Source: Siphonodentalium dalli
Lineage: Eukaryota > Mollusca > Scaphopoda > Gadilida > Siphonodentaliidae
Reading direction: 5' to 3'
Length of the DNA stretch: 64,000 nt
NCBI GenBank assembly: GCA_032622095.1
Contig: CP136064.1
Span: forward strand, 253,646,484 to 253,710,483
Part shown: in pieces, positions 793 to 64,000 of the stretch
Layout: every line of letters begins with the position of its first letter
Numbering within the stretch: the stretch's first letter is position 1
Made by a program: the position numbers and the translations under genes
Notes under the pieces: model-generated
Seen by the model: only the letters and a program-made list of their open reading frames with translations
Databases searched by the model: none
Told to the model about the DNA's origin: nothing

Positions 793-926
793 AAAGTTTA
801 CTGGATAGTTTTCATGTGCATATAGTGTGAGCCACTGAAACGATGAATTTACATCTTTTAAATATGGCAATTGTCTCAAAATCTGCACACCGATGACTCG
901 CTATAGAATAGGATATCCATATACTT

Positions 927-2888
927 ATGGCATCGTCGTCCAGACGTCGGCGCAGTGAGGACTCGCCGGATTTATCTCCACATTATGACCGGATTCTTCT
1001 CGCTTCACACCAAAGTAGGTTTGTAGCACGAAAATCGTCTGATCGTAATAAGCAGACATTAGTGGGGAGCGCAGGGAGTGGCGTTAATACTTTATGGAGT
1101 GATGCAGATATGATGATCGAACCTCGAGACATAACAATTAATGAATCCAGCTTAATCTACCACGAACACCTCCCTTGTTATGTCCGAGTATCGACCGAGG
1201 GGTTAACTGGGCTTGTGTCGCAGATACTCCTGGGTAAAGAGGGATACATGCGGGCTGATCCGGTCAGAGACATAGCTGAGGAGATATTTGGAGTACCTAA
1301 TAAGTTTGGTAAATCTTCGAAAGTCGGTAAGATATACAACACTCCAGACATCGACATAGACTTTGTGCCACAGCTGAGAATCAGTGGTTTACCACGGACA
1401 GCTCACTCGTTCACCACACGCGACCGGATATGGCCACCATACGACATTATATCACTCGTAAGCGGCGGGGAATTTCACATCGCAGCACGCCCTGCTCCAT
1501 CTAACCCGGATCCAGAGCACGATTTCTGTCTGTCATTCGCTAAGGCAGAAGTCGTGCTGTTGAGAACAATGTCTGCTTACCAGACTCTGAGTATACGTTA
1601 CTTGAAGGTAATCAGACCTTTCATTGATTGTGACCCGCGAGTGTTGACGTCATATCATCTGAAGACGTCAGCTCTCTGGTATTTCGAGAAAACCCATGCT
1701 CGTGCGTGGGAAGAGCATTGCCCGGTCGTGGCTATACTAAAGGGGCTAGATCAGTATTTGAACGCCGGATTCCTGCCTCATTATTTTGTTTCTGAAATGA
1801 ACTTGTTTGCTGGTGTCTCAGAATCAGATCTGATAGATGTCCGTAGGCGCCTGTGGTCATTTCTCGGGTTGTGTCTATTCACCGATGGTATTGGGGAAAC
1901 CAGATCACACACAGTACTGCAGCTCTCTATGAATGTCATGAGCAATCGACTTTCCAAACCATACCTAGAGAAGGATGTTATGTGTGATATAGAGAAGATC
2001 ATGGGACTATCAGAGGTCATGTACGGAACCGGGAATGCTTTCAATAATGTCACTAAAAAAAATTTATCTGAATCTGTAATGAACATAAATCCACTCTATT
2101 TAGTTAGACGTAAGTATAGTGACATGTTTAAAACAATATTTAAATACACCAACAACGTTGTTGATAGCTATGTGTTTTCTAAGCCAAATATTAATACAGA
2201 TATTGCTGTTGGATTCATGCTCATACTCAGTTCCACTAAGGAACCTTTTGAGGAATTCTTTGGTATGAGATCAGCGCAAAAAGTCAGTGGCACCTCTCAT
2301 GGTGTTGACAGAGAATTGCGCAAATCAGAACAGACAATGAATACATGGTTAGCTTTCACCGATGATTTCATTGGAAGGCTGAAATCTCAACTGAGCAAGT
2401 TCAATGACAAGGCGTTATGTGTGATGTCACAGAAGTCATGTGACCACAGCTGTCCGAGCAATGATCAATGCAAGGAAAATATCTACACGCTGTTCGACGA
2501 AGTTACCAAAGACTTATTATCGTTTGCAGTCAGGCAAATTGAAACCTTCGCCTATCCTGTCGAAAATGACACATATTCATTCAGGCCCATTCCAGGTGAT
2601 GATGTTCTGGTAAAAATTACCATATTACATGACGTCATTGAGAGACTGTTCCTTCCGGTAGAGTACGCTATCGTTAGGAGGATTCGTCTCAAAGCATCTG
2701 GTGGATCAGGTGATCGGGCAACAATAATAAAACGAATGATGAATCCAGAGAGCTTGGAATGTCGATGTATGGCAGCGCACGTCGTTTACATTGATATGAT
2801 AGAGGAATTCCGCCAGTTATATTACACGTTTAGCGTATATCAAGGAGTTATGGAATTCATGGTCAACACACTCCGTGCATGGCCGTGA
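927..2888 (+). CDS. Mab-21 domain protein, cGAS-like receptor (cGLR) candidate
   Basis: An uninterrupted 653-codon frame. The ATG at 927 is the first in frame, with an in-frame TAG at 909. A basic N-terminus (RRRR at 6-9) precedes a nucleotidyltransferase fold: a G47-S48 motif, then S-D59-A-D61, then D145-F-V-P as the third acidic residue. All three metal-binding acidic positions of the cGAS/Mab-21 family are therefore present. The Mab-21 helical half follows: FAKAEVVLLR (204-213), SYHLKT (242-247), a W261-centred segment and LPHYFVSEMNLF (283-294). Family members with intact acidic triads include cGAS and animal cGLRs, which sense nucleic acid and make cyclic dinucleotides for STING. Ligand and product here are inferred, not shown. 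The zinc-thumb Cys/His cluster of vertebrate cGAS is not apparent in the core. The C-terminal half (about 320-653) is unassigned and has a small cluster C498, C505, H507, C509, C515. Being single-exon could reflect retroposition. A non-enzymatic Mab-21-like protein is the alternative. Confidence 0.85.
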   Translation: MASSSRRRRSEDSPDLSPHYDRILLASHQSRFVARKSSDRNKQTLVGSAGSGVNTLWSDADMMIEPRDITINESSLIYHEHLPCYVRVSTEGLTGLVSQILLGKEGYMRADPVRDIAEEIFGVPNKFGKSSKVGKIYNTPDIDIDFVPQLRISGLPRTAHSFTTRDRIWPPYDIISLVSGGEFHIAARPAPSNPDPEHDFCLSFAKAEVVLLRTMSAYQTLSIRYLKVIRPFIDCDPRVLTSYHLKTSALWYFEKTHARAWEEHCPVVAILKGLDQYLNAGFLPHYFVSEMNLFAGVSESDLIDVRRRLWSFLGLCLFTDGIGETRSHTVLQLSMNVMSNRLSKPYLEKDVMCDIEKIMGLSEVMYGTGNAFNNVTKKNLSESVMNINPLYLVRRKYSDMFKTIFKYTNNVVDSYVFSKPNINTDIAVGFMLILSSTKEPFEEFFGMRSAQKVSGTSHGVDRELRKSEQTMNTWLAFTDDFIGRLKSQLSKFNDKALCVMSQKSCDHSCPSNDQCKENIYTLFDEVTKDLLSFAVRQIETFAYPVENDTYSFRPIPGDDVLVKITILHDVIERLFLPVEYAIVRRIRLKASGGSGDRATIIKRMMNPESLECRCMAAHVVYIDMIEEFRQLYYTFSVYQGVMEFMVNTLRAWP

Positions 2889-15100: not shown

Positions 15101-18100
15101 TTTTGGTCCGTCTGGTTTCTGTTCATGTCATAACTTGAACAGTAGTGCTCGTATCGCAATGAAATTTGGTACGGATGTTGACTACTACTATGAGAGCATG
15201 CAATAGAGGGTTCCACTGTTTTGTTTTGGTTTTCCATTCTAGAGTTATTCATCTTTGTTTATCTGGAAATGTTGGCTTTTTGGTATATCTTGTGTCTGTT
15301 CATGTCGTAATTTCAACAATTGTGCTGGGATCTCAATGGAATTTGGTATGGATGTTCACTGCTATGAGGACATCAAAAAGAGGGTTCCATCGTTTTGTTT
15401 GAATATTCCATTCTAGAGTTATACATCTTTGTTCATCTGGAAATGTTGACTTTTTGGTCTGTCTGGCTGGTGTCTGTTCATGTTGTAACTTCAACAATTG
15501 TGCTGGGATCTCAATGGAATTCGGTATGGATGTTCACTGCTATGAGGATATTCAATAGGGGGTTCCATTGTTGTGCACCGCTCTTCCTGTCTAGAGTTAT
15601 TCATGTTTGTTCATCTGCAAATGTTGGCTTTTTAGTCCGTCTGGTGTCTGTTCATGTTGTAACTTCAACAATTGTGCTGGGATCTCAATGGAATTCGGTA
15701 TGGATGTTCACTGCTATGAGGACATTCAATAGGGGGTTCCATTGTTCTGTTCCGCTTTTCCATTCTAGAGTTATTCATCTTTGTTTATCAGGAAATGTTG
15801 GTTGTTTGGTCCATCCGATGTCTGTTCAGCTCATAACTTGAACAGTAATGCTCGGAACTCAATGAAATTTTGTATGGATGTTCACCACTATGAGGACATT
15901 TAATGGCACATTTAAAAGTTTGTTTGGTTTTTTGTTCTATAGTTATCTTTGTTTATATGAAAATGCTGATTTCTGGGGCCATATGTCTGAGTATAGCCAT
16001 CATAAGTTATAGATGTGCCCACACTAGGCGGTATGCCACGAGGGGGTATGCTCCGGACGACAGTCCATCTCTTGTTAATAGTCTGTCTGGGTTATTAATT
16101 GTCTGTCTGGGTAATTAATTGTATGTCTGGGTTATTAATTATATATCTGGGTTATTAATTGTTTGTCTGGGTAATTAATTGTCTGTCTGGGTAATTAATT
16201 GTCTGTCTGTGTAATTAATTGTCTGTTTGGGTTATTAATTGTCTGTCTGGGTAATTAATTGTCTGTCTGGGTAATTGTCTGTCTGGGTAATTAATTGTCT
16301 GTCTGGGTAATTAATTGTCTGTCCGGGTAATTAATTGTCTGTCTGTGTAATTCATTGTCTGTCAGGGTAGTTAATTGTCTGTCTGTGTAATTAATTGTCT
16401 GTCTGTGTAATTAATTGTCTGTTTGGGTTATTAATTGTCTGTCTGGGTAATTAATTGTCTGTCTGGGTAATTGTCTGTCTGGGTAATTAATTGTCTGTCT
16501 GGGTAATTAATTGTCTGTCCGGGTAATTAATTGTCTGTCTGTGTAATTCATTGTCTGTCAGGGTAGTTAATTGTCTGTCTGTGTAATTAATTGTCTGTCT
16601 GAATAATTAATTGTCTGTCTGGGTTATTAATTGTCTGTCTGGGTTATTAATTGTCTGCCTGTGTAACTAATAGTCTGTCTGGGTTATTAATTGTATATCT
16701 GGGTTATTAATTGTTTGTCTGGGTAATTAATTGTCTGTCTGGGTAATTAATTGTCTGTCTGTGTAATTAATTGTCTGTTTTGGTTATTAATTGTCTGTCT
16801 GGGTAATTAATTGTATGTCTGGATAATTAATTGTCTGTCTGGGTAATCAATTGTCTGTCTGTGTAATTGTCTGTCTGGGTAATTAATTGTCTGTCTGGGT
16901 TATTAATTGTCTGTCTGTGTTATTAATTGTCTGTCTGGGTTATTAATTGTCTGTCTGGGTAATTAATTGTCTGTCTGTGTAATTGTCTGTCTGGGTAATT
17001 AATTGTCTGTCTGGGTTATTAATTGTCTGTCCGGGTAATTAATTGTCTGTCTGGGTAATTAATTCTCTGTCTGGGTAATTAATTGTCTGTCTGGGTAATT
17101 AATTGTCTGTCTGGGTTATTAATTGTCTGGGTAATTAATTGTCTGTCTGGGTAATTAATTGTCTGTCTGGGTTATTAATTGTCTGTCTGGGTTATTAATT
17201 GTCTGTCTGTGTAATCAATTGTCTGTCTGGGTTATTAATTGTCTGTCTGGGAAATTAATTGACTCTCTGTGTAATTAATTGTCTGTCTGGGAAATTAATT
17301 GCCTGTCTGTGTAATTAATTGTCTGTCTGGGTTATTAATTGTCTGTCTGGGTTATTAATTGTCTGTCTGGGTAATCAATTGTCTGTCTGGGTAATTAATT
17401 GTCTGTCTGGTTAATCAATTGTCTGTGTAATTAATTGTATGTCTTGGTAATTGTCTGTCTGTAATTAATTGTCAGTCTATGTAATTAATTGTCTGTCTGG
17501 GTAATTAATTCTCTGTCTGGGTTATTAATTGTCTGTGTTATTAATTGTCTGTCTGGGTAATCAATTGTCTGTCTGTGTAATTAATTGTCTGTTTGTGTAA
17601 TTTATTGTCTGTCTGGGAAATTAATTGCCTGTCTGGGTTATTAATTGTCTGTCTGGATAATCAATTGTCTGTCTGGGTAATTAATTGTCTGTGTAATTAA
17701 TTGTCTGTCTGGGTAATTGTCTGTCTATGTAATTAATTGTCTGTCTGGTTAATCAATTGTCTGTGTAATTAATTGTCTGTCTGGGTATTTGTCTATCTAT
17801 GTAATTAATTGTCCGTCTGGGTTATTAATTGTCTGTCTGGGTAATCAATTGTCTGTCTGGGTAATTAATTGGCTGTCTGGTTAATCAATTGTCTGTCTGG
17901 GTAATTAATTGTCTGTCTTGGTAATTAATTGTCTGTCCGGGTAATTAATTGTATGTCTGTGGTAATTTAAGTATATGGAAACCAATTGTCTGTCTGGGTA
18001 ATTAATTGTCTGTCTGGGTAATTGTCTGTCCGGGTAATTAATTGTCTGTCTGGGTAATTAATTGTCTGTCTGGGTTATCAATTGTCTGTTTTGGGTAATT

Positions 18101-21700: not shown

Positions 21701-24700
21701 GGTCCGTCTGGTTTCTGTTCATGTCATAACTTGAACAGTAGTGCTCGTATCGCAATGAAATTTGGTACGGATGTTGACTACTACTATGAGAGCATGCAAT
21801 AGAGGGTTCCACTGTTTTGTTTTGGTTTTCCATTCTAGAGTTATTCATCTTTGTTTATCTGGAAATGTTGGCTTTTTGGTATATCTTGTGTCTGTTCATG
21901 TCGTAATTTCAACAATTGTGCTGGGATCTCAATGGAATTTGGTATGGATGTTCACTGCTATGAGGACATCAAAAAGAGGGTTCCATCGTTTTGTTTGAAT
22001 ATTCCATTCTAGAGTTATACATCTTTGTTCATCTGGAAATGTTGACTTTTTGGTCTGTCTGGCTGGTGTCTGTTCATGTTGTAACTTCAACAATTGTGCT
22101 GGGATCTCAATGGAATTCGGTATGGATGTTCACTGCTATGAGGATATTCAATAGGGGGTTCCATTGTTGTGCACCGCTCTTCCTGTCTAGAGTTATTCAT
22201 GTTTGTTCATCTGCAAATGTTGGCTTTTTAGTCCGTCTGGTGTCTGTTCATGTTGTAACTTCAACAATTGTGCTGGGATCTCAATGGAATTCGGTATGGA
22301 TGTTCACTGCTATGAGGACATTCAATAGGGGGTTCCATTGTTCTGTTCCGCTTTTCCATTCTAGAGTTATTCATCTTTGTTTATCAGGAAATGTTGGTTG
22401 TTTGGTCCATCCGATGTCTGTTCAGCTCATAACTTGAACAGTAATGCTCGGAACTCAATGAAATTTTGTATGGATGTTCACCACTATGAGGACATTTAAT
22501 GGCACATTTAAAAGTTTGTTTGGTTTTTTGTTCTATAGTTATCTTTGTTTATATGAAAATGCTGATTTCTGGGGCCATATGTCTGAGTATAGCCATCATA
22601 AGTTATAGATGTGCCCACACTAGGCGGTATGCCACGAGGGGGTATGCTCCGGACGACAGTCCATCTCTTGTTAATAGTCTGTCTGGGTTATTAATTGTCT
22701 GTCTGGGTAATTAATTGTATGTCTGGGTTATTAATTATATATCTGGGTTATTAATTGTTTGTCTGGGTAATTAATTGTCTGTCTGGGTAATTAATTGTCT
22801 GTCTGTGTAATTAATTGTCTGTTTGGGTTATTAATTGTCTGTCTGGGTAATTAATTGTCTGTCTGGGTAATTGTCTGTCTGGGTAATTAATTGTCTGTCT
22901 GGGTAATTAATTGTCTGTCCGGGTAATTAATTGTCTGTCTGTGTAATTCATTGTCTGTCAGGGTAGTTAATTGTCTGTCTGTGTAATTAATTGTCTGTCT
23001 GTGTAATTAATTGTCTGTTTGGGTTATTAATTGTCTGTCTGGGTAATTAATTGTCTGTCTGGGTAATTGTCTGTCTGGGTAATTAATTGTCTGTCTGGGT
23101 AATTAATTGTCTGTCTGGGTAATTAATTGTCTGTCCGGGTAATTAATTGTCTGTCTGTGTAATTCATTGTCTGTCAGGGTAGTTAATTGTCTGTCTGTGT
23201 AATTAATTGTCTGTCTGAATAATTAATTGTCTGTCTGGGTTATTAATTGTCTGTCTGGGTTATTAATTGTCTGCCTGTGTAACTAATAGTCTGTCTGGGT
23301 TATTAATTGTATATCTGGGTTATTAATTGTTTGTCTGGGTAATTAATTGTCTGTCTGGGTAATTAATTGTCTGTCTGTGTAATTAATTGTCTGTTTGGGT
23401 TATTAATTGTCTGTCTGGGTAATTAATTGTATGTCTGGATAATTAATTGTCTGTCTGGGTAATCAATTGTCTGTCTGTGTAATTGTCTGTCTGGGTAATT
23501 AATTGTCTGTCTGGGTTATTAATTGTCTGTCTGTGTTATTAATTGTCTGTCTGGGTTATTAATTGTCTGTCTGGGTAATTAATTGTCTGTCTGTGTAATT
23601 GTCTGTCTGGGTAATTAATTGTCTGTCTGGGTTATTAATTGTCTGTCCGGGTAATTAATTGTCTGTCTGGGTAATTAATTCTCTGTCTGGGTAATTAATT
23701 GTCTGTCTGGGTAATTAATTGTCTGTCTGGGTTATTAATTGTCTGTCTGGGTTATTAATTGTCTGTCTGTGTAATCAATTGTCTGTCTGGGTTATTAATT
23801 GTCTGTCTGGGAAATTAATTGACTCTCTGTGTAATTAATTGTCTGTCTGGGAAATTAATTGCCTGTCTGTGTAATTAATTGTCTGTCTGGGTTATTAATT
23901 GTCTGTCTGGGTTATTAATTGTCTGTCTGGGTAATCAATTGTCTGTCTGGGTAATTAATTGTCTGTCTGGTTAATCAATTGTCTGTGTAATTAATTGTAT
24001 GTCTTGGTAATTGTCTGTCTGTAATTAATTGTCAGTCTATGTAATTAATTGTCTGTCTGGGTAATTAATTCTCTGTCTGGGTTATTAATTGTCTGTGTTA
24101 TTAATTGTCTGTCTGGGTAATCAATTGTCTGTCTGTGTAATTAATTGTCTGTTTGTGTAATTTATTGTCTGTCTGGGAAATTAATTGCCTGTCTGGGTTA
24201 TTAATTGTCTGTCTGGATAATCAATTGTCTGTCTGGGTAATTAATTGTCTGTGTAATTAATTGTCTGTCTGGGTAATTGTCTGTCTATGTAATTAATTGT
24301 CTGTCTGGTTAATCAATTGTCTGTGTAATTAATTGTCTGTCTGGGTATTTGTCTATCTATGTAATTAATTGTCCGTCTGGGTTATTAATTGTCTGTCTGG
24401 GTAATCAATTGTCTGTCTGGGTAATTAATTGGCTGTCTGGTTAATCAATTGTCTGTCTGGGTAATTAATTGTCTGTCTTGGTAATTAATTGTCTGTCCGG
24501 GTAATTAATTGTATGTCTGTGGTAATTTAAGTATATGGAAACCAATTGTCTGTCTGGGTAATTAATTGTCTGTCTGGGTAATTGTCTGTCCGGGTAATTA
24601 ATTGTCTGTCTGGGTAATTAATTGTCTGTCTGGGTTATCAATTGTCTGTTTTGGGTAATTAATTGTCTGTCTGGGTAATTAATTGTCTGTCCGGGCAATT

Positions 24701-44449: not shown

Positions 44450-44511
44450 ATCCTGTATGGAAGCGTATTGGTGCCACATAAAAATAAAAATTTGGGTCCC
44501 ATTATGTCCAA

Positions 44512-44690
44512 ATTAGGAGATAGTAAGTCCTAATTAGGAGATAGTAACTCCTAATTAGGACATAGTAAGTCCTAATTAGGAGATAGTAAGTCCTAATTAG
44601 GAGATAGTAAGTCCTAATTAGGAGATAGTAACTCCTAATTAGGACTTAGTATCTCCTAATTAGGAGTTATTATCTCCTAATTAGGAGATA
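44512..44690. repeat. CCTAATTAGG array, left end
   Basis: Eight to nine units of about 21 bp alternate CCTAATTAGG with AGATAGTAAGT or AGATAGTAACT spacers. The orientation of the spacer flips toward the inner end. Confidence 0.9.
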
Positions 44691-44691
44691 A

Positions 44692-45343
44692 TCTATTATA
44701 TATTTTTGGAAGATCTGTATGTGTGTGTGTGTGTGTGGGGGTGTGTCTGTCTGTGTGTTCGCGATGGACTCGAAAACGGCGGAGCCGATTTCGATGAAAC
44801 TTGGTATGTGGGGGTACTTTCGGCCGTGGAGTGACATGGTCCTGTTAATTTGCCCGTGCGACGTGACCTTGACCTTGAAATCGGGTCATTTCAAGGTCGA
44901 ACGCCCGAGTATCACGGGATTTCGATGAAAATTAGTGTCTGGGGATACTTTCGTATGGGGAGTGTCGTAAGCCTATTCGTTTGCCCGTGCGACGTGACCT
45001 TGAAATCGGTTAATTCAAGGTCAAATCGCGAATTTTGATGGGATTTCGACGAAATTTGATACGTATGGTTACTTTTGTCCACTGGGTGTTTTCGACGGAT
45101 CAAATCGTGACCCCGACCTGACCTTGACCTTCAAAATGATCAATTCGAGGTCAAATCGGGTAAAACCGGATGGATTTCGACGGGTACTTTTGTCGGGTAC
45201 TTTTCTCCGGGCAGTGTTTTCGACGGGTCAAATCGTTACCCCACCTGACCTGACCTTCAAAATGGACAATTCAAGGTAAAATCGCGCAATTCGCCGAAAA
45301 GCAGAGGGGAAACATCCCGGACGAAGTCGGGTCCACCTGCTAG
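44692..45343 (+). mobile_element. Non-autonomous Helitron, nested
   Basis: The 5' end is A|TCTATTATATATTTTT. The 3' end has the hairpin CCCGGACGAAGTCGGG (45,316-45,331), then 8 nt and CTAG (45,340-45,343) followed by T. This is the classical Helitron arrangement: TC start, 3' hairpin, CTRR end, insertion between A and T. A GT microsatellite (44,718-44,740) and about four diverged internal units (GATTTCGACGAAA, GTACTTT, GTGACCTTGACCTT) fill it. Five exact matches to TGACCTTGA/TCAAGGTCA lie at 44,864, 44,870, 44,995, 45,015 and 45,119. No Rep/helicase is present. Confidence 0.85.
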
Positions 45344-49670: not shown

Positions 49671-50214
49671 GTGTTCCGATATTTAATGCAGCTCGCCGAC
49701 AGGCTCTTGACTCAACATACATGATTGGGGAGGAGCCCCTCTATGACGTCCCTCAATCGATTTAATCCCTCGCGTATTCGTAAAAAATAATGCCCACGGG
49801 CATTCTTAAAAAATAATTCCCACGGGCATTCTTAAAAAAGAATGACTGTTGGCGTTAAAATAATGCTCATGCGATCAAAACGCCTGAGCGTTCTGCCAGA
49901 TAAGAGCCGTGTCCGGACAAAGGGGTAACACGCCGGTGGGTTTTAAATGGTACACATACCTGGCCCCGCGGTAACAGAACTTTGTCATATATATATAATA
50001 AAATGACAGCGGCGGATTGGGGTATATATGGGGTGGCTAACTCCGGGATTCTCGAAAGGGCCCATATGTCCTTCCCCTAACCCCTCATTTTAAACCTTTA
50101 ATTTTGAAAACAAAGGCGAAAGGCATGAGAACGAACGGAGCGATGCGACCGTCAGCCGAGTGATCCGGAGACGATATTAATCTGACCACGAACATGTTGT
50201 TTATATCTGTGTTA
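49671..50214. other. No gene seen
   Basis: Contains three short GCCCACGGGCATTCTTAAAAAATAAT-like repeats at about 49,790-49,850. Otherwise unremarkable. Confidence 0.45.
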
Positions 50215-50510
50215 TCTCCTAATTAGGAGATAATAAGTCCTAATTAGGAGATACTAAGTCCTAATATCTCCTAATTAGGAGATATTAAGTCCTAATTAGG
50301 AGATACTATGTCCTAATTAGGATATATTAAGTCCTAATTAGGACTTACTATCTCCTAATTAGGACTTACTATATCCTAATTAGGACTTACTATCTCCTAA
50401 TTAGGACTTACTATCTCCTAATTAGGACTTACTATCTCCTAATTAGGACATAGCTATCTCCTAATTAGGAGTTACTATCTCCTAATTAGGACTTACGATT
50501 TCCTAATTAG
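50215..50510. repeat. CCTAATTAGG array, right end
   Basis: About fourteen units of the same ~21-bp repeat as 44,512-44,690. The spacer orientation reverses near 50,330, so the array is itself roughly palindromic. Confidence 0.9.
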
Positions 50511-50854
50511 GACATACTGGGACCCAAATTTATATTTTTATGTGGCACCAATACGCTTCCATAATCCTGGTTGTTGGGATGAGGGGATTTGTTTTAGATG
50601 CTTTTCTTTGAATTGCATTTCAGTTCCTTAACCTTCCATGACTTGAGCTTCCTGAAATTTGACGAAAACCTGTGCCAATGCAATCTCTTAATACATGTAT
50701 ACGAGTCTCACTGGCACAGGATCTTTAATGCGATCTGCACCAGTGCAGCTATCGTAATGAAAGGGTTAAGAAAGGTCCTGTAAATTTTGAAGCAATGGAT
50801 TCAGAGCTGTAAAAAGTGTTAATAATATATTTATAGCCGCACAACGATAAGTCT

Positions 50855-58183: not shown

Positions 58184-58641
58184 ATGTTTGTATTGCTTCT
58201 TACCCAGGTGGCAATTTAGGTCATTTCTGCAACATGGCCCACAAACTGAAATCGAAGCCAGAAAAGACACCTCGACACGTCATCATCAACATTGGCATCA
58301 ACAACCGAGAGGACTGGAAGACAGACAACGACAAAGGCAAAACAGCAGGCACCACAGCTAAAAGCAGGGTAACTAACATGGTTAGTAATTTCCGAAAAGT
58401 TTTTCCTAATGCGACACTTCATTTTCAGGAAATAAATATCTCATTCAGTTTAGATTCTAGGGACCAGGATGTTCTGCGTGCCATTAACAGCCAAGCTCGT
58501 CAGACACAGAACCTCAAGGTCATACAGGCAATACCCCCCCGCGACTTTCACGTGGAGAATGACAACATCCACTGGACATCACAGACGGCGGCGAAAATCT
58601 ACCAAGGCTGGACCAACATCTTTAAAGGTCATTTAAACTAA
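58184..58641 (+). pseudogene. 5'-truncated ORF1 of the Penelope-like element (SGNH-like domain part)
   Basis: Encodes residues 332-483 of the 483-aa ORF1 found complete at 61,803-63,254, here without its start. It keeps the NIGINN block and the DNIHW block of the SGNH-like domain but lacks the nucleophile block. Upstream in-frame codons come from flanking TA-repeat DNA. It ends with the same slippery heptamer and TAA as the intact copy. Confidence 0.85.
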
Positions 58642-61004
58642 TTCCTCAGAAGGGCATCAGCCATGCGGAAAGAGTCGGTCTCGGCACCGAGATAGTCAAT
58701 CTTGTACCCGACCTTTCCCTGAGCGCTGGCGAGAAATCAATACTTAGGTATGGTCTAACCTTTGTTCCTACCCCACCCGATCTCAAAGAAACACCACATG
58801 TTGTTGAGACGGAGGATGGAACATTGGTTTTACCAGACTCTATGTATGCCATGGAAATGAACGGCGGTCCAGCAAGCATGCAATTTAGGGAAGTAACAGC
58901 TATGGCTGATTTCTTTCGCAATTCGACAGGTTTAAAAGATCAATTTAAAGAACCTTCGATATGGACCCCCTCTGATCGCCAGATTGACCACTCCATTCCC
59001 GAGGTCGCTGGCTTAGTCAAAACCGACATCACAAATTTACCAAAATTTCACAACGAGGATAACCTCACTAAAGTTGAAAGAACTGCACTAAAAACTCTTC
59101 GCAGCAATAAAAACATTGTAATCAAACCTTGTGACAAAGGCAGCTCGCTCGTCATCATGTCTAAAGAAAATTACATTCTAGAAGCGACGCGCCAATTAAG
59201 CAACACTAAATATTACAAACCATTGGATGGGCCAATTTGGAAATCCAATGTTTTAAAATTCAATCTCATTCTCAAAAGCTTGCTGGACCAGGACGTTTTA
59301 AAGAAAAAACATGTTCAGTATCTAATTGCAAAACCTGAATCCAATAATAGGACATTTTATTTGCTACCTAAAATACACAAACCTTTGAGCTGTTGGACTA
59401 ATCCATACACACCACCCGGTCGCCCCATCATCAGCGACGTGGCTTCGGAGTCGTACCACATTTCGGAGTTTATTGATTTCTATTTGAAACCAATTGCTAC
59501 CCGCCATCCGAGCTATCTAAAAGACACGGAGGACTTCCTCATTAAATTGTCGAAAATTGAAGTTCCATCTTCTGCTTACCTAATTAGTCTCGACGTGGAA
59601 TCTATGTATACAAATATTGGAATCGATGCCGGATTAAAGTCAATTAAGAATGCATTTGATTTCCACCATGATCCTCATAGACCTGGAGATGAACTACTTC
59701 AATTATTAGAACTTTCTCTTAAAGGGAATGACTTTGAATTTAATGGACGATATTATTTACAGGTCTCCGGCTGCAGTATGGGCAAGAAGTTTAGTCCTAA
59801 TTTTGCCTCAATTTTTGTTGCAGAGTGGGAGAAAGGCGCCCTGGCCAAATCTGATAAACAACCATTAGCCTATTATAGATTCTTGGACGACATATTTATC
59901 ATTTGGACTCATGGTCTGGATGAGTTTAGGGTGTTCTTGGACATCTTGAACAGTCATGACGAATCAATCAAACTCAAAGAATCAATATCGCAAACCAGCA
60001 TTGATTTCCTTGATTTAACAATATTTAAGGGCCCACAATTTACATCATGCAACATTTTAGATACAAAACTTTTTACGAAACCAACGGATTCTCACCAGCT
60101 ACTTCATCGTAAATCTTTCCATCCGCCAAAACTTTTCAATGGATTGATTAAATCTCAAATCATTCGATATCACCGGAACTGCACGAACAGAAGCGACCTA
60201 AATCAAGCTTGTTCAGTGCTTTTCCAGGCTTTACGACCGCGCGGCTACTCTAGTAGATTACTGCGCCAAGTAAAGTCCGAAACTCTCAGAGAATTGAACT
60301 CGTCACGCCATGACCCAACATCGACTGAACCAACAAGGATACGGCACAACCGGCCGGTGTTGGGTAATGGTTCAGCCTCATTTTGTCACAAAAAACGATG
60401 TTACATCAATACAATAGGATATATCAATACTAGTAACACTTTCACCAGCGAACAAACACGCATATCGTATCAAATGCATAGCGAACTTAATTGTGATTCT
60501 AAAAATGTAATTTACTTAATCACATGCAAAAGATGCCGTATACAATATGTTGGACAAACAAAAACCTCTCTCAAAGTTAGAATGTCTAATCATCTTTCCA
60601 GTGTTCGCAAAAAACTCGACATGCAAATTTCCGATCATTTCAACTCATCTAATCATGACATTAAATCCCATTTCAGCTTTCAGCCAATAGAACAGACACC
60701 AATTCTAGCCGACGAAGACCAAACCGATTCAATACGCCTAGAACGCGAAAATCATTGGATGGGCGTACTTAAAACATATCTTCCGTTCGGACTTAACATT
60801 GACTACAAAGGTGTTTCTCGAAATTTCTTGTGCTTTCCTCTGATCTACAATCGTAGAAATGTTGAAATCGCAAACATTTTCAGAAAAAACTTTGCATTAT
60901 TAAACACTAAATTGACCGAGCCTCTCGACAAACGGGTTATTATTGCCTACAAGAAAAATCCCAGTTTGAGAGATATGCTCGTTCGATCTAGACTCAGACC
61001 TTGA
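58626..61004 (+). CDS. Penelope-like reverse transcriptase with GIY-YIG endonuclease (ORF2)
   Basis: Copies element RNA into DNA at nicked chromosomal sites. The frame is open from 58,626. The first ATG is at 58,842, inside what looks like conserved N-terminal sequence (a GLTFVPTP motif lies before it), so entry by frameshift from ORF1 is likely. Counting from 58,824: N-terminal CDKGSSLVI (103-111), RT motif A SLDVES (D257), motif B SMGKKFSP (318-325), motif C FLDDIF (D355, D356), a Cys-containing linker (CHKKRC, 521-526), then GIY-YIG with VIYLI (562-566), YVGQT (575-579), R586 and E640. All catalytic positions are intact and no internal stop is present. The RT plus C-terminal GIY-YIG order identifies an endonuclease-bearing PLE rather than a LINE. 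It is probably translated only as a fusion with ORF1; a truncated copy 1 may lack a promoter of its own. Confidence 0.93.
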   Translation, partial: RSFKLIPQKGISHAERVGLGTEIVNLVPDLSLSAGEKSILRYGLTFVPTPPDLKETPHVVETEDGTLVLPDSMYAMEMNGGPASMQFREVTAMADFFRNSTGLKDQFKEPSIWTPSDRQIDHSIPEVAGLVKTDITNLPKFHNEDNLTKVERTALKTLRSNKNIVIKPCDKGSSLVIMSKENYILEATRQLSNTKYYKPLDGPIWKSNVLKFNLILKSLLDQDVLKKKHVQYLIAKPESNNRTFYLLPKIHKPLSCWTNPYTPPGRPIISDVASESYHISEFIDFYLKPIATRHPSYLKDTEDFLIKLSKIEVPSSAYLISLDVESMYTNIGIDAGLKSIKNAFDFHHDPHRPGDELLQLLELSLKGNDFEFNGRYYLQVSGCSMGKKFSPNFASIFVAEWEKGALAKSDKQPLAYYRFLDDIFIIWTHGLDEFRVFLDILNSHDESIKLKESISQTSIDFLDLTIFKGPQFTSCNILDTKLFTKPTDSHQLLHRKSFHPPKLFNGLIKSQIIRYHRNCTNRSDLNQACSVLFQALRPRGYSSRLLRQVKSETLRELNSSRHDPTSTEPTRIRHNRPVLGNGSASFCHKKRCYINTIGYINTSNTFTSEQTRISYQMHSELNCDSKNVIYLITCKRCRIQYVGQTKTSLKVRMSNHLSSVRKKLDMQISDHFNSSNHDIKSHFSFQPIEQTPILADEDQTDSIRLERENHWMGVLKTYLPFGLNIDYKGVSRNFLCFPLIYNRRNVEIANIFRKNFALLNTKLTEPLDKRVIIAYKKNPSLRDMLVRSRLRP
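58632..58638 (+). promoter_or_regulatory. -1 ribosomal frameshift slippery heptamer (T TTA AAC), copy 1
   Basis: TTTAAAC sits in ORF1 phase as T-TTA-AAC, immediately before the TAA at 58,639. A -1 slip enters the ORF2 frame at CTA ATT CCT. This matches the canonical X XXY YYZ rule. Downstream, small hairpins are possible: GCAT/ATGC at 58,654-58,666 and TCTCG/CGAGA near 58,678-58,691. No strong pseudoknot at the usual 5-9 nt spacing was found by eye. Confidence 0.7.
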
Positions 61005-61080
61005 TTAACACGCAGTTCAATTAGCTTTTAGCTTATGTCAACACCATTATCCTTAGTTTGTGCTCAACACAATATTTTAT

Positions 61081-61262
61081 GTCAATTTCCGACACAACCC
61101 AAGCAAATTTAGCTAGTTCCATCTTTGAATGGCAACAATGCTCAACAAATTATTCAATGTCAATTTCCGACACAACCTAACAAAATTGATGTCAATTTCT
61201 GACACAACCTAACAAAATTTATGTCAATTTCCGACACAACCTAACAAAATTTAGCTAGTTCC
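61081..61262 (+). repeat. 3' UTR minisatellite of the Penelope-like element
   Basis: TGTCAATTTCCGACACAACC followed by TAACAAAATT occurs about four times (61,081; 61,158; 61,191 variant; 61,223), with AAATTTAGCTAGTTCCAT at both edges. It lies between the ORF2 stop and the next ORF1. Confidence 0.85.
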
Positions 61263-61601
61263 ATAGAAATAATTACATAAGAAATCGGATTCCGACCTGT
61301 GCCCGCGCTCTCCACACTTTCAAAATATATATATCGCCTGTGCCAGGGATATCTTTTATTTCTATTTACTTAACACATATGTATTACTGTCTAATTGCGT
61401 ACTGTCACTAGGATTTGGATTAGGGGCTTCCGGAAGCCATTACACAACCCATTAAGAACGCGCGATCTTAAATAAACACGGGCGTCGTGACGGCGCCAAA
61501 CATTTTGTATGCATTGTTTCACTGTTTGTTTTAAACAGGAACATAGCTGTTGACACGTCTCTCGAAACCCTGGAGCACAATGGGAGCTTATCTCACACGG
61601 G

Positions 61602-61609
61602 TATATAAG
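61602..61609 (+). promoter_or_regulatory. TATA-like box of copy 2
   Basis: TATATAAG about 50 bp before the putative leader intron and 195 bp before the ORF1 ATG. A promoter in this inter-copy region would fit the pseudo-LTR arrangement of Penelope-like elements. Motif evidence only. Confidence 0.4.
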
Positions 61610-61622
61610 ATCCATGGAAAAA

Positions 61623-61680
61623 CCTCAACATTCGAACCTAGCTTGCTTCCTGAAGAAGGTAATTCTACCGAAACGTTGAG
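61623..61680 (+). ncRNA. Hammerhead-ribozyme-like fold
   Basis: CCTCAAC (61,623-61,629) pairs with GTTGAGG (61,675-61,681). CTGAAGA (61,650-61,656) matches the CUGANGA core. GGTA/TACC (61,658-61,669) forms stem II with loop ATTC, and GAAA (61,670-61,673) follows. GAA/TTC gives a short stem I after a TTC cleavage-type triplet. Oddities are one extra A after the CUGANGA box and mismatches at the base of stem III. Hammerheads are known in PLE pseudo-LTRs; activity here is inference. Confidence 0.4.
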
Positions 61681-61777
61681 GCAACTTGACAGTGCGCTCC
61701 TAAGTACTTTTTTATTTTATATCTTCGCGTTCCGTTCTTTGTGTATTATATGTTACTAATCATTACCTTTATTCACA
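61659..61777 (+). other. Putative leader intron of the Penelope-like element
   Basis: Donor AAG|GTAATT, branchpoint TACTAAT (61,753-61,759), pyrimidine tract and acceptor TTCACAG (ending 61,777). The intron would be 119 bp. ORF1 starts 25 bp after the acceptor. Penelope itself is known to carry a short intron near its 5' end. If spliced, the donor overlaps stem II of the hammerhead-like fold, so splicing and ribozyme folding would be mutually exclusive. Confidence 0.6.
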
Positions 61778-61802
61778 GCCAAAATTCAAGTCCTGGATCA
61801 AA

Positions 61803-63254
61803 ATGACTCAACCAAAACAACATAAACGTGGAAAAACTAACCGCCCAGAGCGGCAAAAAGACCAGGCTTATTTAGACCATTCAAATCTAGTAAAGTTGCT
61901 ATACAAAATTCTACAACTTTGGCACCATATTAATTTTTTACAGGACCGTTTGGAGAAGAAGGTCCTTCCGAAAGGCTTTTCGGCCATCGTTGAGTCAGGG
62001 CGAAAGAAGACATTCCGACCAGTGCTCCCCTGTGAGGATGTCTTCAATTCGCTTAAAGCGGACGCTTTTCAGTGGGGTTTAAACTCCATGAAAACTTTGG
62101 TAAATTATTATCGGAAAACGGAATCAGAAATTGAAGTCAAGGTTCTTTCGGCTCTTTCTTCTAAAACCCTTGACTTCGACCGAGCACGTGACACGGCATT
62201 AAAATGGGGACTGAAGAATTTTGGCACCAAATTAACCAATGAGACAAAATCAAAGTTCTTGAGCATCTGGGGTAATCTTCAGTCCTCGATAGGTACACGA
62301 GTTGGCGTCCAAACTCATACAAACAAACGTGGTCGGTCACCCTCCCCTCCCCCACTAATCGCTCGCCAGCTTCAATTTCAGGATAGTCCAGGCAGGGATC
62401 AGACAACGTCGTCGTCTGTGAGATCCACACCAAAACGCGTCAAAGCCACACCACAGCCACAGAGACCTGCACCAAAACCACGGACGTCACGCATATCCAC
62501 TCCACCAAATACATCACTTCAAAATTCACCAGCCAAGAAAACAACACCACCAAAGCACATCTCTTCCAGCCCTCCTTCGCCTGTTGGTTCCATTGCTTCG
62601 ATGACATCGCCAGCGATTTCAACATCATCACCATCGTATGCCGAGGTATTATCAACATCACCTAAGGTATCCAAATTTTATAAATTTCGTCAACCTGGCC
62701 CTAAGAAGGATTGGTCCTTCCCTAAACAGATAAAAAACCCTGTTGTTATTTTAGGCTCTTCTAATGTGTCCCGGATCGATGTCGATCCTCCCAAAAATGT
62801 TTGTATTGCTTCTTACCCAGGTGGCAATTTAGGTCATTTCTGCAACATGGCCCACAAACTGAAATCGAAGCCAGAAAAGACACCTCGACACGTCATCATC
62901 AACATTGGCATCAACAACCGAGAGGACTGGAAGACAGACAACGACAAAGGCAAAACAGCAGGCACCACAGCTAAAAGCAGGGTAACTAACATGGTTAGTA
63001 ATTTCCGAAAAGTTTTTCCTAATGCGACACTTCATTTTCAGGAAATAAATATCTCATTCAGTTTAGATTCTAGGGACCAGGATGTTCTGCGTGCCATTAA
63101 CAGCCAAGCTCGTCAGACACAGAACCTCAAGGTCATACAGGCAATACCCCCCCGCGACTTTCACGTGGAGAATGACAACATCCACTGGACATCACAGACG
63201 GCGGCGAAAATCTACCAAGGCTGGACCAACATCTTTAAAGGTCATTTAAACTAA
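61803..63254 (+). CDS. Penelope-like element ORF1: basic/proline-rich protein with SGNH-hydrolase-like domain
   Basis: 483 aa from the ATG just after the putative leader intron. Residues 1-50 are basic and helical. Residues 55-165 form a predicted helical region (WGL repeats at 91 and 135). Residues 176-285 are a Ser/Pro/Thr-rich basic linker. Residues 313-483 read as an SGNH-type fold: block I VILGSSNVSRI (nucleophile candidate S320), G341 in PGGNLGHF, NIGINN (367-372, oxyanion Asn) and D458-x-x-H461. SGNH/esterase ORF1 proteins are established in CR1-type LINEs; I do not know one as standard in PLEs. A role in RNP formation or membrane/lipid contact is inference. A TTTTTTACAG tract at about 61,935-61,944 inside the frame could be a second acceptor. 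ORF1 ends at the slippery heptamer. Confidence 0.85.
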   Translation: MTQPKQHKRGKTNRPERQKDQAYLDHSNLVKLLYKILQLWHHINFLQDRLEKKVLPKGFSAIVESGRKKTFRPVLPCEDVFNSLKADAFQWGLNSMKTLVNYYRKTESEIEVKVLSALSSKTLDFDRARDTALKWGLKNFGTKLTNETKSKFLSIWGNLQSSIGTRVGVQTHTNKRGRSPSPPPLIARQLQFQDSPGRDQTTSSSVRSTPKRVKATPQPQRPAPKPRTSRISTPPNTSLQNSPAKKTTPPKHISSSPPSPVGSIASMTSPAISTSSPSYAEVLSTSPKVSKFYKFRQPGPKKDWSFPKQIKNPVVILGSSNVSRIDVDPPKNVCIASYPGGNLGHFCNMAHKLKSKPEKTPRHVIINIGINNREDWKTDNDKGKTAGTTAKSRVTNMVSNFRKVFPNATLHFQEINISFSLDSRDQDVLRAINSQARQTQNLKVIQAIPPRDFHVENDNIHWTSQTAAKIYQGWTNIFKGHLN

Positions 63255-64000
63255 TTCCTCAGAAGGGCATCAGCCATGCGGAAAGAGTCGGTCTCGGCAC
63301 CGAGATAGTCAATCTTGTACCCGACCTTTCCCTGAGCGCTGGCGAGAAATCAATACTTAGGTATGGTCTAACCTTTGTTCCTACCCCACCCGATCTCAAA
63401 GAAACACCACATGTTGTTGAGACGGAGGATGGAACATTGGTTTTACCAGACTCTATGTATGCCATGGAAATGAACGGCGGTCCAGCAAGCATGCAATTTA
63501 GGGAAGTAACAGCTATGGCTGATTTCTTTCGCAATTCGACAGGTTTAAAAGATCAATTTAAAGAACCTTCGATATGGACCCCCTCTGATCGCCAGATTGA
63601 CCACTCCATTCCCGAGGTCGCTGGCTTAGTCAAAACCGACATCACAAATTTACCAAAATTTCACAACGAGGATAACCTCACTAAAGTTGAAAGAACTGCA
63701 CTAAAAACTCTTCGCAGCAATAAAAACATTGTAATCAAACCTTGTGACAAAGGCAGCTCGCTCGTCATCATGTCTAAAGAAAATTACATTCTAGAAGCGA
63801 CGCGCCAATTAAGCAACACTAAATATTACAAACCATTGGATGGGCCAATTTGGAAATCCAATGTTTTAAAATTCAATCTCATTCTCAAAAGCTTGCTGGA
63901 CCAGGACGTTTTAAAGAAAAAACATGTTCAGTATCTAATTGCAAAACCTGAATCCAATAATAGGACATTTTATTTGCTACCTAAAATACACAAACCTTTG
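63239..64000 (+). CDS. Penelope-like ORF2, copy 2, partial at window end
   Basis: Same frame and sequence as 58,626-59,387 of copy 1, running off the window before RT motif A. No disabling change was noticed in the visible part. The first ATG is again well inside conserved sequence, so frameshift entry is expected. Confidence 0.9.
63245..63251 (+). promoter_or_regulatory. -1 ribosomal frameshift slippery heptamer (T TTA AAC), copy 2
   Basis: Same site as at 58,632, placed at the end of the complete ORF1 and directly followed by TAA (63,252-63,254). This is the copy in which a full-length ORF1-ORF2 product could be made. Confidence 0.7.

Follow-up and report, generated by a model that had tools for sequence, protein, structure and literature searches.

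Esterase domains of retroelements

SGNH domains have been reported in long interspersed nuclear elements (LINEs), long terminal repeat (LTR) elements and Penelope-like elements (PLEs) (PMC5408684, PMC3905857). Zebrafish ZfL2-1, a CR1-clade LINE, encodes in its ORF1p (PDB 4c1b) an SGNH esterase that lies behind N-terminal helices, and two residues of this esterase, H191 and S228, were described as conserved among transposon esterases only (Schneider et al. 2013, PMC3905857). When both were mutated, activity was abolished and liposome binding was kept, and the esterase showed no binding to oligo-(A) RNA (PMC3905857). Schneider et al. found the SGNH esterase 'even in Penelope-like elements', namely in ORF1 of RepBase Penelope-like elements, and GDSL/SGNH open reading frames (ORFs) are also described from the endonuclease-deficient Athena/Terminon PLEs of bdelloid rotifers, which are telomeric, multi-ORF giants (PMC5408684, PMC6431247). 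Sharing of ORFs between retroelement types has been argued in PMC5408684, and in the consulted portions of PMC7599744 and PMC7140322 we found no mention of PLE esterases. Here we describe a PLE in a 64,000-nt stretch (the window) of contig CP136064.1 of the scaphopod Siphonodentalium dalli (positions 253,646,484 to 253,710,483), in which two copies of the element stand in tandem, the second extending past the window end. ORF1 of the second copy is predicted to end in an SGNH domain and overlaps the start of ORF2, which, as read from the first copy, encodes a reverse transcriptase (RT) and a GIY-YIG endonuclease (EN). Coordinates are collected in Table 1.

A predicted SGNH domain at the C-terminus of ORF1

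An earlier note, made from the letters of the window alone, had placed an SGNH-hydrolase-like domain in residues 310-483 of a PLE ORF1, and had taken its presence in an endonuclease-bearing PLE to mean convergent capture or an exchange between retroelement classes. The open frame runs from 61704 to 63254 and, counted from its first Met at 61803, gives an ORF1 of 483 residues, with which that numbering agrees. All of the blocks that had been named were found, i.e., GSSN (S320), PGGN (G340), GINN (N371) and DNIHW (D458, H461), so that the protein has the Ser-Gly-Asn-His blocks in order plus the Asp-x-x-His expected of the SGNH/GDSL superfamily; its predicted structure likewise has the flavodoxin-like alpha/beta fold of that superfamily. 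Both the profile search and the Foldseek structure comparison returned SGNH matches, and the assignment of the ORF1 C-terminus to an SGNH domain is thus supported by sequence profile and predicted fold together.

The SGNH domain is the last of three parts of ORF1, following a helical N-terminal domain and a basic linker rich in Pro, Ser and Thr. AlphaFold modelled residues 1-176 with a mean pLDDT of 82, and the N-terminal helical domain had no Foldseek match at E≤0.001 against PDB structures. A single-sequence search found seven relatives of ORF1 and a profile search found nine, the seven included; these relatives, from contigs of 2.7-92 kb, are known here from protein alone, and a PLE ORF2 beside them is putative. 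One of them, P0001, has a NADAR domain (residues 163-295) between its helical and SGNH domains (PF08719, E 1.4e-15; TIGR02464, 61 bits, under the cut-off of 73.7). Gypsy elements and Tx1 LINEs are reported to carry NADAR domains (PMC12477816), and P0001 may add a third retroelement class with NADAR, its PLE host being putative.

At 28-38% identity to the window ORF1, the residues S, G, N, D and H are invariant in all nine aligned rows. The residues described as the transposon-esterase hallmark are absent from the same alignment: the counterpart of H191 is residue 367 (N in the window protein, S in 8/8 others) and that of S228 is residue 413 (Q in the window protein, P in seven rows and A in one), so that His occurs at the first position in 0/9 rows and Ser at the second in 0/9. 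In this respect the family differs both from ZfL2-1 and from the other transposon esterases of Schneider et al. With H191 and S228 absent, the ORF1 family either packs differently inside or is a poor enzyme, and the catalysis of ZfL2-1 is not transferable to it, which is a point against an enzymatic role. Alternatively, the domain might serve only as a module for structure or binding, with catalysis that is lost or does not matter; Oskar, an SGNH protein that is non-catalytic, is an example of this kind. Besides the altered hallmark positions, loss of the Asp before the nucleophile in two of the nine rows and an OSK-domain match (E 0.045) in one of them speak for such a module, as does the liposome binding of ZfL2-1, which is independent of the active site (PMC3905857). 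We regard pure scaffolding as unlikely, because a scaffold would have no need of the S, G, N, D and H that every row keeps at this level of divergence.

Nearest structures and origin of the domain

Sequence and structure rank the neighbors of this domain differently. When the family profile was searched against PDB sequences, the ZfL2-1 ORF1p esterase (4c1b) was the top match (E 1e-7), with a sialate O-acetylesterase second, about five orders of magnitude behind (E 0.013); by structure, Foldseek placed PAF-AH and bacterial esterases above 4c1b, which was at rank 27, and in a second structure comparison 4c1b fell outside the best 50 rows. The profile ranking, together with the same position of the domain within ORF1, favors a transfer to PLEs from CR1/L2-type LINEs, i.e., an exchange between element classes followed by loss of the H191-S228 lock, and Schneider et al. 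have argued for a single origin with Penelope included (PMC3905857). Against such a transfer, none of the nine rows retains either hallmark residue, the structure ranking points elsewhere, and the PDB ranking says little since 4c1b was the only transposon esterase noticed among the matches. We therefore hold the LINE origin only tentatively, and give just as much credence to a separate event in which this PLE lineage captured a cellular SGNH gene of the PAF-AH/GDSL type; the sequence profile, in favoring the LINE esterase, speaks against such a capture.

Tandem copies of an endonuclease-bearing element

Over their shared bases the two copies are identical (1204/1204, 100%; first copy against 62797-64000 of the second), and ORF1 of the second copy and ORF2 of the first are uninterrupted frames. 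ORF2 was read from the first copy, where the 792-aa frame matched PF00078 RVT_1 with 29.6 bits, exactly at the cut-off of 29.6, and PF01541 GIY-YIG with 34.9 bits (cut-off 22.6). The FLDD box of the RT is at residues 419-422. With RT and GIY-YIG in a single ORF the element belongs to the EN+ PLEs, and the endonuclease-bearing host named in the earlier note is thus borne out through the adjoining copy. A Cys pair, C587/C592, lies between RT and EN, and C634/C637 lie within the EN domain. Neptune-group PLEs likewise have RT and GIY-YIG with Cys residues in between (PMC3846280); as the likeness was judged by the Cys pair only, a Neptune-like affiliation is a lead.

Tandem and partial-tandem arrays are usual in PLEs (PMC11167929), and the window has such an arrangement with a pseudo-LTR (pLTR)-like stretch, a 5'-truncated copy being followed by a copy identical to it over 1204 bp. 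This identity suggests a recent insertion, although conversion or duplication at a later time would leave the same picture. In the inter-copy untranslated region (UTR), the GTTGAGG 3' of a hammerhead-like core can pair with an upstream CCTCAAC (61623-61629) over 7 bp, and the core at 61650 had no Rfam family match at E≤1. The same region has short repeats at about 61061-61264, with spacings of about 32, 78, 111 and 143 bp.

We conclude that the SGNH domain of this endonuclease-bearing PLE is real; in outline, such a finding dates back to 2013. Novelty of the domain in this class is not supported: PLE esterases were already in PMC3905857 and GDSL ORFs in the Athena/Terminon PLEs (PMC5408684), so an SGNH ORF in a PLE was known, and the domain was largely catalogued in PLEs beforehand. 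The present element differs from ZfL2-1 in being a PLE with GIY-YIG and from Athena/Terminon in being EN+. What sets it apart is the missing transposon-esterase hallmark and a candidate frameshift junction between ORF1 and ORF2.

The junction of ORF1 and ORF2

Not until 63455, at residue 73 of its frame, does ORF2 have an in-frame ATG, and the stretch before it is conserved: relative P0010 aligns with the whole frame (100%) at 51% identity and P0012 with 98% of it. Within the short overlap of the two ORFs there is an in-frame heptamer of the X XXY YYZ type, T TTA AAC, as used in -1 frameshifting. Among the best 120 of 891 ORF2 relatives, 11 were picked out by the pattern N-[IVL]-[IVL]-N-[LI] close to the N-terminus; in seven of these 11 it is preceded by FKL, where the window ORF2 frame reads TTT AAA CTA. 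On the ORF1 side, LN occurs within the last seven residues of five of the nine relatives, and the window LN is TTA AAC. Each reading of the heptamer is thus found again among relatives, in agreement with a conserved overlap, and the residue before LN is His or Phe in P0001, P0005 and P0008, compatible with T TTA AAC.

Several observations weigh against a frameshift. In P0002 and P0004, two of the five LN-ending ORF1 relatives, the residue before LN is Gln, which makes T TTA AAC impossible there because Gln codons end in A or G. ORF1 (484 codons) contains five in-frame heptamers, including a second TTTAAAC at 62078, from which we estimate about a 5% chance of one falling in the short overlap by composition. 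No notable structure was found downstream of the heptamer (63252-63371, minimum free energy z -1.06 in a pseudoknot-free model). A Met stands upstream of FKL in six of the seven FKL relatives, so a normal start is possible in those, and the FKL peptide would not result from slippage at the heptamer. The Met, the lack of strong downstream structure and the Gln residues all favor a start of ORF2 behind ORF1 that needs no frameshift, through reinitiation or at a non-AUG codon, to which we give a nearly even chance; this route has to contend with the window having no in-frame ATG ahead of 63455 despite the conserved stretch there, and with a perfect in-frame UUUAAAC inside a 16-nt overlap. Expression of ORF2 by a -1 frameshift at T TTA AAC, as read from the sequence, is a possibility that we put somewhat short of even. 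A literature search on PLEs, frameshift and ORF2 found no title on PLE frameshifting.

Proposed role of ORF1

On balance we favor a reading in which ORF1 would be an accessory protein, comparable to Gag, of an endonuclease-bearing PLE that probably inserted recently. ZfL2-1 ORF1p is a relative with a solved structure and assay data (PMC3905857), and by analogy with it the helices at the N-terminus may self-associate, the basic segments (pI 10.3) may bind RNA of the element, and the SGNH domain may dock the ribonucleoprotein (RNP) on membranes of negative charge; slow hydrolysis of esters would serve as a release, a regulatory step or a switch. ORF2 (RT-GIY-YIG) would, if our tentative reading of U UUA AAC is right, be translated in fusion with ORF1 after a -1 frameshift, and the overlap suggests that a minority of ORF1 could then bring the polymerase into the RNP in Gag-Pol fashion; insertion by the usual PLE route would yield tandem copies. 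The activity, membrane docking and RNA binding of ORF1 are predicted functions that we infer from this analogy. RNA binding by ORF1 is a guess, as oligo-(A) was not bound by the esterase of ZfL2-1. Schneider et al. described an N-terminal dimeric coiled coil; in the present ORF1, helices are predicted. The broader proposal, of a second retroelement SGNH lineage in EN+ PLEs (of this host and, judged by the ORF1 relatives, probably of fishes and other sources) that had an origin separate from the CR1/L2/RTEX esterases and whose product is a Gag-Pol-like SGNH-RT-GIY-YIG fusion via the UUUAAAC -1 frameshift, we consider improbable.

This family bears on the role of SGNH domains in retrotransposition. 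A PLE family with the catalytic residues and without the H191-S228 lock offers a probe of whether selection acts on docking, on half-domain opening or on hydrolysis, and the family is a sequence set for testing movement between element classes against repeated capture of the domain. The -1 frameshift, if real, would account for the way in which a PLE with two ORFs produces its polymerase without a start codon.

Table 1. Features of the two PLE copies, in window coordinates.
Feature	Coordinates	Strand	Remarks
First PLE copy	58184..61004	+	5'-truncated inside the SGNH domain; ORF2 complete
ORF2 of first copy	58626..61004	+	792-aa open frame: RT, C587/C592, GIY-YIG endonuclease
Interval from copy 1 ORF2 to copy 2 ORF1	61005..61802	+	3'/5' UTR, pLTR-like
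Hammerhead-like core CTGAAGA ... GAAAC	61650-61674 (region 61623..61681)	+	Short stem; in the pLTR-like stretch before ORF1
ORF1 of second copy	61803..63254	+	483 aa; isoelectric point (pI) about 10.3
N-terminal all-helical domain, residues 21-166	61863..62300	+	Predicted; conserved in aligned ORF1 relatives
Low-confidence linker, residues 167-296	62301..62690	+	47% Pro/Ser/Thr, net charge +17
Predicted SGNH-hydrolase domain, residues 297-483	62691..63251	+	S320, G340, N371, D458, H461
ORF1/ORF2 overlap	63239..63254	+	16 nt; ORF2 in -1 frame
T TTA AAC heptamer, ORF1 frame	63245..63251	+	Directly before stop TAA (63252-63254); candidate -1 frameshift site
ORF2 of second copy	63239..64000	+	254 aa within the window; window end cuts the frame

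Other features of the window

The long stretch 10001-32000 is strongly asymmetric between strands (GC skew 0.20 to 0.37, AT skew -0.35 to -0.49). The 157-aa frame at 15368 recurs without change at 21964, a sign of a large repeat array. Nearer the start of the window (912-2888), a 658-aa open frame contains a GSGVNTLWSDADMM stretch, which we take to resemble Mab-21/nucleotidyltransferase motifs. The short-repeat arrays at 44496-44696 and 50212-50523 are related, with mutual matches on both strands.
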